Assembly (NCBI RefSeq): GCF_009861505.1
Contig: NZ_WTFT01000002.1
Location: 248,001 to 312,000, forward strand
Length of the DNA: 64,000 nt
DNA from: Pseudomonas izuensis
Lineage (GTDB): Bacteria; Pseudomonadota; Gammaproteobacteria; Pseudomonadales; Pseudomonadaceae
Direction: 5' to 3'
Below the pieces are notes generated by a model. It saw only the letters and a program-made list of their open reading frames with translations, did not search any database and had not been told where the DNA came from. Within the stretch, counting starts at the first letter, position 1. Every line of letters begins with the position of its first letter. Position numbers and translations under genes: made by a program. Below are positions 44,933-48,417 of this stretch, piece by piece.

Positions 44933-45056
44933 AAGCCTTTCCCCTTCGCGTTGGACTACATTTTACTGTGCGCTGGTAAGGGTGCAGCACGCTGTTACGG
45001 AGCTTTCATAGATTCAGCGCTGATCATAAAACCTGGTTTTTATGAGCGGGTTGGCG

Positions 45057-46271
45057 ATGAAGCCTCTAACGCTGTTTCTGTTTGTATGGGTTGCCATTTT
45101 TTCGCCAGGAACGTTGGCCGATACACGGCTGAACAAGCCTGTACCGCTTTATGAGCCCGAGCAGGACTTCAATCAATGGTTGGCATCTGATCAGGGACCA
45201 AAAGCCTCCCTGACGCAAATGCGCGAGCGTTGCGACCGTGTGCTGGATGCTGCGAAGAACCTGGATTGCTCCGTGACGGTGATCGCCCGCATGTTCGAGC
45301 TCAAGGCCGCCAATCAGCTGCCTGATTACTATCTGGCGATCAAGCGCAAACACGCGCCGGCCATAGAGGCCGATCAAGAGCTGAAAATGTTGTTCTCGAT
45401 GTTCGGGGAGCAGTCTCTGTTGACCCTGAGGACGACTGGCGATTTCACGGTGAAAAGAACATCACAGCGTGAAGTCCTCAGGATTCATTCGTATGCCAGT
45501 GACTATTTCATTGCCGGAGAGCAGCTGCCCTTCATTGATGTCGCTGCGGCCAATGGTCATTCGGCCCGTTTCGTTCTCGACACCGGCGCCCCGCAAACCC
45601 GGGTCAATGTCGACACCGCCCGGCAGATGGGGATCAAGTTGCTGACCGACTCCCACTACGCCTACGGCACGTTCTACGGCGAGGGCAACCTGCCCGCCAG
45701 GCTCGGCATTCTCGACTCGCTGAAGGTGGGCGCCAGCGAATTCCACAACGTGCTGGTGTTTGTCAGCGATCGGGACAACTTGCTGGGGCTGGATCTGATC
45801 AGCAAGTTAGGGCACCTGAAGTTGGCCCGTAAAACCCTGGAGCTCAACCCCGCCCGGTCCCCGCGCTGCGACTCACCGATCAACTACACCCGCACCGACC
45901 TCAACCAGCGACTGACCATCGCGGCTAGCCTGGACAACCGGACGACGCAGGCCATCGTCGATACCGGCAATGTCGACTACCTGACGTCGGCCATGCCGGG
46001 TGAGCAGGTCAATGTCGTGCAGTCCATGACCCCTGGCAATTCCCCTCCCGATACCCCCGATAGACATCGCTACCAACGCTTCAAAGGCGTGCTGAACCTG
46101 CCTGGCCATAGCCTGCCGATCACTTACAAATACTACCCGGGCTTCACCATCCCGCCGTCGTGGGTGAGCGGGCGGTATGTGCCGTCGGTTCTACTGGGGT
46201 GGCGGGCATTCGATGATTTTGAGTTGAATCTGGATATCGACGCGGGGCGGTCGTGTTTCAACAAGGTTTGA
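45057..46271 (+). CDS. Secreted two-lobed retropepsin-like aspartic protease
   Basis: 404 residues from ATG 45057, with signal peptide MKPLTLFLFVWVAIFSPGTLA. Two retropepsin-type active-site motifs occur in one chain: FVLDTGAP (DTG 175-177) and AIVDTGNV (DTG 302-304). Each is followed by its own hydrophobic-Gly partner (NLLGLDLI near 242 and SVLLGWRAFDDF near 378). The chain thus holds two complete lobes, like a pepsin-type pseudo-dimer. The N-terminal about 150 residues are of unknown fold. An alternative start at 45042 adds five residues. Substrate unknown; periplasmic or secreted by signal. Confidence 0.83.
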   Translation: MKPLTLFLFVWVAIFSPGTLADTRLNKPVPLYEPEQDFNQWLASDQGPKASLTQMRERCDRVLDAAKNLDCSVTVIARMFELKAANQLPDYYLAIKRKHAPAIEADQELKMLFSMFGEQSLLTLRTTGDFTVKRTSQREVLRIHSYASDYFIAGEQLPFIDVAAANGHSARFVLDTGAPQTRVNVDTARQMGIKLLTDSHYAYGTFYGEGNLPARLGILDSLKVGASEFHNVLVFVSDRDNLLGLDLISKLGHLKLARKTLELNPARSPRCDSPINYTRTDLNQRLTIAASLDNRTTQAIVDTGNVDYLTSAMPGEQVNVVQSMTPGNSPPDTPDRHRYQRFKGVLNLPGHSLPITYKYYPGFTIPPSWVSGRYVPSVLLGWRAFDDFELNLDIDAGRSCFNKV

Positions 46272-46314
46272 TGAGCGCCTGGCGGTGTTTACCCACAATC
46301 CCTGTTGGCGGTTC

Positions 46315-46323
46315 TGTGGATAA
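46315..46323 (-). promoter_or_regulatory. DnaA box 1 (TTATCCACA)
   Basis: Exact match to the high-affinity DnaA-binding 9-mer on the minus strand. Confidence 0.8.
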
Positions 46324-46464
46324 CATGTTCGCCCCTTGCTAAACACCTTGTAAACCGTGGTCTGTAGCCCTTCGTTCAAAAAACAACCAGCCTAAGCTGC
46401 GGTTTTTCATGGGTTTTTTCAGAGGATAAGTACAGGACTTGCCCCCAATCTCTGTTGGCGCTTC

Positions 46465-46473
46465 TGTGGATAA
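46465..46473 (-). promoter_or_regulatory. DnaA box 2 (TTATCCACA)
   Basis: Exact 9-mer, 150 bp after box 1, same orientation. Confidence 0.8.
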
Positions 46474-46646
46474 GATGTTCACTTACCGCTACAGGCCTTA
46501 CAAGACGTGGCTTTCGTGCTTCTGGTTAAAAATCGATCAATCCATCGTTTTTAACGGTTCAATCGTGCTGGAAGCCATAAATTTCACGGCTTATAGCGGT
46601 TTTCCACAGCGGTGGAGAAGTTGCCCCCAAAGTCTGTTGGCGCTTC

Positions 46647-46655
46647 TGTGGATAA
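46647..46655 (-). promoter_or_regulatory. DnaA box 3 (TTATCCACA)
   Basis: Exact 9-mer, 182 bp after box 2, same orientation. Confidence 0.8.
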
Positions 46656-46828
46656 GGTGTTCGCTATACGCTACAAGTCATGCAATGCGGGGCTTTCAAA
46701 GGTTTGATCAAAAATTGATCAGGCGCTGGTGAAAACCCTGGTTCTGAATAAGTCACGGATTTTCTTCGGTTTCTGTGGAGAAAGTTTTCAACATGTCCAC
46801 AGTTGTCCCCATTTGCTGTGGGTGGAGA

Positions 46829-46837
46829 TGTGGATAA
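46829..46837 (-). promoter_or_regulatory. DnaA box 4 (TTATCCACA)
   Basis: Exact 9-mer, 182 bp after box 3, same orientation. One-mismatch copies also occur at 46774-46782 and 46936-46944. Confidence 0.8.
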
Positions 46838-46955
46838 CTTGTTTGCGGAAGGCTGGGAGCCGCGAAGGGCATAGCGCTGAACGGAATAGATCATATTTCG
46901 TACAGTTCTGAGGCGGAGGGTGTCAGGAGTTTATTTGTGGATAGTTAGATCGTTT

Positions 46956-47104
46956 TCGCGAGCAGGCTCGCTCCTACAGGATTTGTGAACAACACAGATC
47001 TACTGTAGGAGCGAGCCTGCTCGCGATGGTCGTGAACGATAACGCGGGGTATGAGGCAATCCGCGGTGTTCGGGCATCCATCGCGAGCAGGCTCGCTCCT
47101 GCAG
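46956..47104. repeat. Triple REP cluster (GCGAGCAGGCTCGCTCC class)
   Basis: Copies at 46956-46980, 47003-47028 and 47079-47104 in alternating orientation, immediately downstream of gbcA. Confidence 0.9.
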
Positions 47105-47121
47105 GTTCAGGGACAGGCTAG

Positions 47122-48417
47122 TCAGCCGGTGACCGGGACGCCTTTGAGGTACGGCGCAGGCTCGGCCCCCAGGTTGCTCAGCAGGCGCTCGCTGTACCAA
47201 TCCACAAAGTTCACCACGCCGAACTCATAAGTCTTGGAGTACGGCCCTGGCTGGTAGGCGGTGGAGTTGATCCCGCGCTGGTTCTCTTCGGCCAGGCGAC
47301 GGTCCTGGTCGTTGGTGGCGTCCCAGACCTGGCGCATGCGCTCCACGTCGTAGTCCACGCCTTCGACGGCGTCCTTGTGGACCAGCCACTTGGTGGTGAC
47401 CATGGTCTCCTGGGCGCTGATCGGCCACACGGTGAAGACGATGATGTGGTCGCCCATGCAGTGGTTCCAGGAGTGCGGCAGGTGCAGGATGCGCATCGAG
47501 CCCAGGTCCGGGTTCTTGATGCGGCCCATGAGTTTGGCACAGCCTTGCTTGCCGTCGATGGTCATCGACACGGTGCCCTTGAGCAGCGGCATGCGCACAA
47601 TGCGGTTGCGCAGGCCGAAACTGGCGTGGGCGTAAGGGATTTTCTCGGCTTCCCAGGACGCGGCGGACGCAGCGACGTGGTCCTTGAACGCCTGGTCGGC
47701 GCGCGGGTCGGTGACGTCGTCCCACTCCAGCAGGGTTTTCAGCAGTTCCGGGTGCGACGCGTTGCAGTGGTAGCACTCGCGGTTGTTTTCCAGCACAAGC
47801 TTCCAGTTGGCCTTTTCCATCAAGGTGGTGGTGATCGCCACCTTGGTGTTCTCCATGTCGTACGGTTCCATGTAATGGTTGAGCGTCGACAGGAAGTCAT
47901 CGATGGCCGGCGGGTTCTCCGCGAGGCTGATGAAGATGTAGCCGCCAGCCGTCTTCACATTCACCGGTTTGAGGCCGTACTGCTTCATGTCGAAGTCGTC
48001 GCCCATCTCGGTGCCGGCGAACAGCAGGCGACCGTCCAGTTCGTAGGTCCACTGGTGATAGTGGCAGACCAGTTTGGCGACCTTGCCCTTGTCGCTGGTG
48101 CACAGGCGCGAACCACGGTGGCGGCAGACGTTATGGAACGCGTGCACCACGCCTTCGGCACCACGAATCACGATGATCGGGTTCTTGCCGATTTGCAGGG
48201 TCAGGTAGTTGCCTTTGGCGGGAATCTCGCAGGTCATGCCGGCGATCAACCACTCTTTCTGGAAAATCTCCTGCATGTCGATATCAAACAGGCGCTCGTC
48301 AGAGTAAAACGGCTGCGGCAGCGAGAAGGTGCGCTCGCGCTCTTGCAGCATCTGGGCGGTGGCCTTGCGTGCGGGTTCCAGCGGATCGCCCAGGCTCAGT
48401 GTAGTAGTGACGTCCAT
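47122..48417 (-). CDS. gbcA: Glycine betaine monooxygenase, Rieske subunit GbcA
   Basis: 431-residue ring-hydroxylating-type oxygenase that removes one methyl of glycine betaine as formaldehyde, giving dimethylglycine. The Rieske [2Fe-2S] ligands are Cys98/His100 (CRHRGSRLC) and Cys118/His121 (CHYHQW). The mononuclear iron site includes the ENNRECYHCNASHPEL helix. GAGGA precedes the ATG. Divergent from its reductase gene gbcB, as in P. aeruginosa. Confidence 0.96.
   Translation of the reverse strand: MDVTTTLSLGDPLEPARKATAQMLQERERTFSLPQPFYSDERLFDIDMQEIFQKEWLIAGMTCEIPAKGNYLTLQIGKNPIIVIRGAEGVVHAFHNVCRHRGSRLCTSDKGKVAKLVCHYHQWTYELDGRLLFAGTEMGDDFDMKQYGLKPVNVKTAGGYIFISLAENPPAIDDFLSTLNHYMEPYDMENTKVAITTTLMEKANWKLVLENNRECYHCNASHPELLKTLLEWDDVTDPRADQAFKDHVAASAASWEAEKIPYAHASFGLRNRIVRMPLLKGTVSMTIDGKQGCAKLMGRIKNPDLGSMRILHLPHSWNHCMGDHIIVFTVWPISAQETMVTTKWLVHKDAVEGVDYDVERMRQVWDATNDQDRRLAEENQRGINSTAYQPGPYSKTYEFGVVNFVDWYSERLLSNLGAEPAPYLKGVPVTG

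Follow-up and report, generated by a model that had tools for sequence, protein, structure and literature searches.

The non-coding gap of 850 bp at positions 46272-47121 of the window (the whole stretch of Pseudomonas izuensis DNA that was analysed, 64,000 nucleotides) holds an array of four rigid modules, each built around a perfect DnaA box, which is read here, at a probability of roughly 78%, as a chromosomal DnaA-control locus of the datA/DARS class on which DnaA and Fis would assemble a nucleoprotein complex. The array probably helps to set the timing of chromosome copying in Pseudomonas, because it is kept in most of the Pseudomonas species examined and combines phased, likely DnaA stations with a likely Fis site. 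Knowledge of the DnaA cycle outside oriC comes mainly from E. coli and its close relatives. The E. coli locus datA binds much DnaA and its loss leads to extra initiations; DARS promotes the release of ADP and the regeneration of ATP-DnaA, and DARS2 needs IHF sites. Among the papers listed from an open-access library, no title or abstract opening described a locus of such a type in Pseudomonas.

The perfect DnaA box TTATCCACA occurs exactly at 46315, 46465, 46647 and 46829, always on the minus strand and with spacings of 150, 182 and 182 bp, just as the first-pass annotation had reported. The near-copies that it had placed at 46774 and 46936 are one-mismatch boxes on the same strand, the first between units C and D (46774-46782, TTCTCCACA) and the second beyond unit D and outside the four units (46936-46944, CTATCCACA). 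Further near-copies start at 46289 and 46600 on the plus strand: the former is the inverted box of unit A, and the latter is an extra opposite-strand box with one mismatch (46600-46608, TTTTCCACA, fitting TTWTNCACA) situated 47 bp before box C. Regarding the unit cores, all on the minus strand and scored in bits with a unit profile, core A (46289-46334, 55.7 bits) consists of the inverted box TTACCCACA (46289-46297, plus strand, one mismatch), a degenerate box (46303-46311), the perfect box (46315-46323) and a second degenerate box (46326-46334). The same four slots, the first of them inverted and box-like, are found at 46439-46447, 46453-46461, 46465-46473 and 46476-46484 in core B (46439-46484, 61.8 bits), at 46621-46629, 46635-46643, 46647-46655 and 46658-46666 in core C (46621-46666, 60.4 bits), and at 46803-46811, 46817-46825, 46829-46837 and 46840-46848 in core D (46803-46848, 50.4 bits). 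As regards chance, the window has 18 matches with at most one mismatch, compared with 6.0 expected (0 of 100 shuffles as high). A repeat search of the window found the boxes to lie in ungapped repeats, one of 106 nt in three copies and one of 40 nt in four; no tandem array was called over them by TRF.

The interval was rightly described as geneless, and the genes on its two sides converge on the array: a clan-AA aspartic-protease-like gene (45042-46271, plus strand; TIGR02281 match below the curated cut-off) and gbcA, encoding the oxygenase subunit of glycine betaine monooxygenase (47122-48417, minus strand; NF058607, 808 bits). Three REP-like inverted and direct repeats of 24-27 nt (TCGCGAGCAGGCTCGCTCCTACAG type) occupy the interval between array and gbcA at 46956-47105. 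Four exact DnaA boxes lie inside neighbouring open reading frames (42596, 42855, 43805 and 49176); boxes at similar positions occur in many gbcA loci, perhaps owing only to protein conservation.

DNA of the array was matched in 95 of 119 genomes of the same genus, the weakest matches spanning only the core of about 40 nt. The set used for comparison consisted of the best place in all 95 matching genomes (30 loci plus 65 fetched) and of 51 of 80 gbcA loci, admitted if the 3 kb following gbcA contained two or more units (29 loci left out); 146 arrays were collected, of which 144 remained as distinct after two identical ones had been dropped. Four units were present in 117 of them, three in 21, two in 5 and one in 1. 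The matches throughout the genus, with boxes kept while the spacers diverge, support the selection that had been suggested earlier. A loss of boxes from units that are otherwise kept, which the same annotation had considered, was not seen (515 of the 542 unit boxes in the 144 distinct arrays were exact), although this is a weak test because the profile that found the arrays includes the box itself.

The gene gbcA was recognised by blastn in the flank retrieved for 56 of the 90 whole-genome arrays having three or more units; it was not found in viral contigs. In 29 of the 80 gbcA loci the nearest 4 kb were free of array-strand boxes; in the six of these that could be placed on searched genomes the array was found 7.2-8.8 kb further on, and an explanation of the 29 loci as a gbcA paralog was therefore dropped. 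At least in these six placed loci the array thus persists while its neighbours change. This bears on the idea that the array serves DnaA-controlled transcription of a neighbouring gene or of a hidden RNA, which draws on the description of DnaA as a transcription factor in PMC8203912. Such a role is very unlikely: a promoter is argued against by the convergence of the flanking genes on the array, 7-9 kb of other DNA can separate the array from gbcA, and a search with Rfam at E up to 1 gave no match within the array, the four sub-threshold microRNA models being located outside it.

Regarding chromosomal position, for which dnaA served as a stand-in for oriC, the array is found on either arm at a distance of 326-1116 kb from dnaA in all 31 placed genomes, i.e. 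those with array and dnaA on one contig (all 25 single-contig matches, four genomes with 2-4 contigs and two others). It is not beside dnaA in any of the 31, which argues against oriC itself. In 30 of the 31 the distance is 326-648 kb, corresponding to 5.9-9.9% of the chromosome, and the median over the placed genomes is 8.2% of the chromosome contig; the respective distances from oriC in E. coli are 10.1% for datA, 20.6% for DARS2 and 32.9% for DARS1. Beyond the genus, units (E up to 0.01) were detected in 175 of 198 genomes of the family, representing 16 of 19 genera. An order-level draw of 194 genomes yielded matches in 11 at E up to 1e-4, of which five belonged to three other families and had one hit each. 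The single unit matches outside the family are those in G341, G349, G378, G408 and G435.

The conserved unit is about 45 bp long and comprises the perfect box, a near-consensus inverted box and two degenerate boxes, with gaps of 5, 3 and 2 bp between successive slots. A gap-free alignment of 70 diverse units, taken from 112 units differing by more than 20% out of 550, gave the consensus nnnnTTGCCCACAATnnCTGTTGGCGnnTCTGTGGATAAnnTGTTCGC. The inverted slot, at -26 from the perfect box, averages 2.13 mismatches to TTWTNCACA, a sharp minimum. The degenerate slots average 4.27 mismatches at -12 and 4.43 at +11, the lowest of 30 background offsets being 4.63, so that the two, in which only TGT is invariant across the aligned units, are recognisable mainly by these three bases. 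In the window the 5-bp gap behind the inverted box is the single best for units A and D, and is tied with a 2-bp gap for units B and C. The extra box before unit C is also a regular component: in the 117 four-unit arrays it is found at -47 in 93 and at -56 to -58 in 16, a shift of about one helical turn, and it is absent in 8. The box had been taken as the best-kept part of each repeat; it is indeed kept, but what is kept is the unit of about 45 bp together with a Fis-like slot at a fixed distance.

The spacings between units are helically phased. In 398 intervals from distinct arrays the fitted period was 10.74 bp with a vector strength of 0.948, and the spacings fell into eight classes (117, 128-129, 139, 148-150, 159-162, 167-173, 181-183 and 191-193 bp), no interval having a spacing of 118-127, 130-138, 140-147, 151-158, 163-166, 174-180 or 184-190 bp. 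When each distinct spacing was counted only once (22 values), 0 of 5000 random sets matched the observed phasing. Parsimony inferred 67 spacing changes on a tree built from the same 119 four-unit arrays (duplicates included, and with the period fitted on the same data), 36 of them of 1-2 bp and 31 of 9-12, 20-23, 33 or 54-55 bp, and none of 3-8 or 13-19 bp. All 31 changes larger than 2 bp were within 2 bp of whole helical turns, compared with 11.5 expected if uniform, and whole-turn changes occurred in all three spacers. The distance between array and gbcA, used as a control, was unphased (vector strength 0.155 for 46 of 56 distances, 10 over 400 bp being dropped), as it was in a second set (0.122 for 48 of 51 loci).

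The unit profile left unscored 37 exact same-strand boxes that lie in the arrays or within 200 bp of them and are outside the phasing count. Twenty-four of these form a further recurrent site in spacer A-B: they follow box A at a distance of 103-107 bp (106 bp in 22 of them) and precede box B by 54-66 bp, the latter distance again changing by about one turn. This extra A-B box (24 arrays, e.g. L145 and L165) is absent in the window. The other 13 are outside the end units, at distances of 170, 158, 56, 181, 159, 172, 138, 172, 139, 138, 159, 136 and 106 bp; the majority of these distances come close to the spacing classes, whereas those of 158, 159 and 136 bp are off by 2-4 bp, so that the phasing is tightest for units with a good core. 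In another genus, g12, a genome can have up to 24 units, and three genomes (G246, G230 and G209) have a densely packed array some 38-49 kb from dnaA; the spacings in this genus, 124, 319 and 383 bp (L257-L259, L266 and L267), which were read on a single strand from boxes that are exact or nearly so, are off the Pseudomonas phasing rule.

An ongoing constraint on spacing is unexpected for a relic. The earlier proposal of a relic origin, and with it that of a mobile or plasmid iteron array, takes up the resemblance of repeated DnaA boxes to iteron or origin DNA. Both are hardly credible, given also that the array is present in 95 of 119 genomes of the genus, that positions 46272-47000 of the window were unmatched in phages and that an 83-base piece (46618-46700) was unmatched in plasmids.

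The spacers carry GATC at exactly +59 and +70 (205 and 191 counts, respectively, in 404 intervals), and this forms the core of a Fis consensus. The pattern GNNYA-N5-TRNNC with an AT-rich centre matched 176 of the 404 intervals, 175 of them at +59, compared with 2% of shuffled intervals. The stricter consensus GnTYAWWWWWTRAnC, as given in PMC4278767, showed on average 1.13 mismatches at +59, 5.2 at the next-best offset and 7.8 over all offsets; the predicted site at +59 was perfect in 102 of 398 intervals and had two mismatches or fewer in 370 of 398, being better kept in spacers B-C and C-D than in A-B. In the window the slot is located at 46374-46388 for unit A (1 mismatch), 46524-46538 for unit B (1 mismatch) and 46706-46720 for unit C (0 mismatches). 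Past unit D a weaker match was found at +60 (46889-46903, 2 mismatches; 6 mismatches at +59). The slot keeps its position, and the whole-turn changes are consequently confined to the DNA between the slot and the following unit. Selection is indicated both by the phasing of the units and by the constant position of the Fis-consensus slot.

Another origin of the phasing would be mutational, with slippage of a unit of about 11 bp producing spacer jumps of 10-11 bp; the recurrence in the spacers of two GATC sites 11 bp apart is in line with this. The GATC repeat is, however, fixed at +59/+70, and it is the part of the spacer beyond this repeat that varies; the helical rule is also followed by steps of 20-23, 33 and 54-55 bp, steps of 3-8 and 13-19 bp are missing, the pattern is seen in all three spacers, and the extra box before unit C likewise shifts by about one turn. 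Slippage is accordingly regarded as highly improbable.

The IHF consensus WATCAANNNNTTR was only weakly enriched, matching with at most one mismatch 22.5% of the intervals and 13% of the shuffles. The window has no exact match to it; in spacer C-D two overlapping one-mismatch matches start at 46694 (plus strand) and 46697 (minus strand), just before the Fis site of unit C. The same consensus, applied to E. coli as a positive control, matched datA exactly and DARS2 at two positions with one mismatch each, and had no match in oriC. The best E. coli matches to the Fis consensus had 3 mismatches in DARS2 and 2 in datA; use of this consensus to discriminate DARS2 from datA, and the argument that datA has no Fis match, were dropped for that reason.

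DARS boxes I and II are described as facing each other, so that two DnaA-ADP molecules bind head to head and ADP is lost, and DARS2 as activated by Fis and IHF (PMC8682772, PMC5742627, PMC4245941). Twelve of the 13 distinct DnaA-bound E. coli loci tabulated in PMC11317965 (the dnaN site was left out) were scanned for an inverted box, a gap, a box, 2-3 bp and another box. DARS1 (2 mismatches) and DARS2 (3 mismatches) were the only loci at which the 5-bp inverted gap fitted better than any other; it tied at datA and nrdD and was not best at the remaining scanned loci; the second gap was 3 bp in both DARS hits. The DARS2 hit (L224:2636-2670) coincides exactly with the three boxes flanked by the primers that were published for the deletion of boxes I-III (PMC4585315), and another DARS2 box group was consequently dropped as the core. 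With gaps of 5 and then 3 bp behind an inverted box that faces same-strand boxes, the Pseudomonas cores appear to share the DARS plan, although this geometry rests on the degenerate middle box, because only TGT is invariant there in the 70 aligned units.

DARS1 and DARS2 are also intergenic like the Pseudomonas array, and the Fis partner of E. coli DARS2 (PMC4245941, PMC8682772, PMC5742627) has a predicted counterpart in the Pseudomonas Fis-consensus slot. The differences are that DARS has one core, whereas the Pseudomonas array has four repeated and helically phased ones; that the middle box is perfect in DARS1, whereas in Pseudomonas the perfect box is the outermost of the three and the middle one is degenerate; and that the array is nearer to the origin, shows weakly supported IHF sites and lacks a sequence match, since a search with the unit model that admitted E values up to 1 found nothing in the E. 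coli loci datA, DARS1 and DARS2. The committed guess is a DARS-like function, i.e. the Fis-dependent regeneration or presentation of active DnaA, because the cores share the DARS order of boxes and gaps and the fixed partner looks like Fis; its chance is put at slightly less than even.

A datA-like sink, in which the array would titrate DnaA or drive the hydrolysis of DnaA-ATP soon after passage of the fork and so block re-initiation, is the close and somewhat less likely alternative. It is favoured by position (30 of 31 placed genomes have the array at 5.9-9.9% from dnaA; about 8% compared with 10.1% for datA, which is likewise intergenic) and by the spacing of boxes, since TTATCCACA and TTATTCACA lie 162 bp apart on one strand in datA and same-strand spacings of 160-162 bp form a main class in Pseudomonas (159-162 bp among the eight classes above). 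Four perfect boxes clustered at one place, a weak box beside a strong one, as described for datA in PMC11317965, and the fact that SeqA was not found in the source genome fit it as well. datA is, on the other hand, no repeated array; it is described as dependent on IHF, which loops the DNA between boxes 2 and 3 (PMC5742627), and has an exact IHF site where the Pseudomonas array shows weak enrichment; and the conserved inverted box with a 5-bp gap differs from its arrangement, in which gaps of 3, 5 and 7 bp tie and the true inverted pair of near-perfect boxes is at 3 bp. The selection and the origin-proximal, datA-like DnaA locus envisaged in the first-pass annotation are supported, but the geometry of the core appears to equal that of DARS, not datA. 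The DnaA boxes were seen correctly at that stage; the inverted and degenerate boxes, the Fis-like slot, the helical phasing and the DARS-like core geometry were missed.

By description only, the array can be likened to the chromosomal DnaA-box clusters of Bacillus subtilis and Streptomyces, which are said to repress untimely initiation (PMC5742627, PMC5010248). With degenerate boxes on its two sides, separated from it by 3 bp and 2 bp, the perfect box is comparable to the 'double DnaA box' sites of E. coli, in which boxes are described as 2 or 3 bp apart (PMC11317965), but the Pseudomonas array adds the inverted box, the Fis slot and the fourfold phased repetition.

The genome of 6.87 Mb contains 132 exact copies of TTATCCACA, compared with 18 of a reversed control pattern, hence DnaA boxes are enriched throughout. 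Among 100 of these 132 exact sites listed, the array is unique in having four exact boxes within 600 bp, so that the many equal clusters named in the first-pass annotation as evidence against its reading were not seen among the sites listed; the dnaA locus (L126), outside those 100 listed sites, has four exact boxes in 273 bp beside dnaA, which score far below unit level with the unit profile. Weaker sites of one to three units do exist in the source genome, on contigs C20, C34, C19 and C12 (E 1e-7 to 0.13). Two of these secondary sites have two units each, namely L230 (G000:C34:14403-14839) and L229 (C20:5823-6073), the latter adjoining an IMPACT/YigZ-family gene. A group of three exact boxes that spans about 100 bp at L236:1510-1612 (G000:C21:45648-45750) overlaps a long open frame and is without unit flanks. 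In each of seven same-genus genomes considered, the matches listed include weaker unit sites, which lie roughly +635 to +822 kb and -669 to -902 kb away, and two of the seven have one far site each.

These further unit sites, among the matches listed, look like a distributed DnaA system, which is one reason to think it unlikely that the array is an element of nucleoid architecture on which DnaA and Fis organise the origin-proximal domain while DnaA activity is unaffected. Phasing and the fixed Fis-like slot do imply a defined three-dimensional complex, as such an element would have, but the strongest constraint falls on the DnaA recognition bases.

As regards the DnaA-control locus, we infer the binding of DnaA and Fis, the formation of the complex and its effect on initiation from sequence. 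In each module DnaA would bind the perfect box, and the inverted and the two degenerate boxes would recruit further DnaA protomers; Fis would bind about six helical turns beyond the DnaA box and bend the DNA, and the four DnaA clusters may then stack into a single complex. Because the linkers vary almost only by whole helical turns, the clusters would be kept on one face of the helix. The fis gene and Hda were found in the source genome, the one genome searched for SeqA. Conceivably, though with less confidence than the DARS-like function, the array represents a DnaA-control element of new design, in which four DARS-type cores, organised by Fis and helically phased, would fold into one large complex and, jointly with the further unit sites on both arms, take over the tasks divided among datA, DARS and SeqA in E. 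coli. The phasing makes a sharp prediction on the facing of distant DnaA complexes, namely that half-turn insertions would break the function and full-turn insertions would be tolerated. If it is true that Pseudomonas has a conserved origin-proximal DnaA/Fis locus, this would provide a readily available target in a large genus that includes soil, plant-associated and clinical bacteria.
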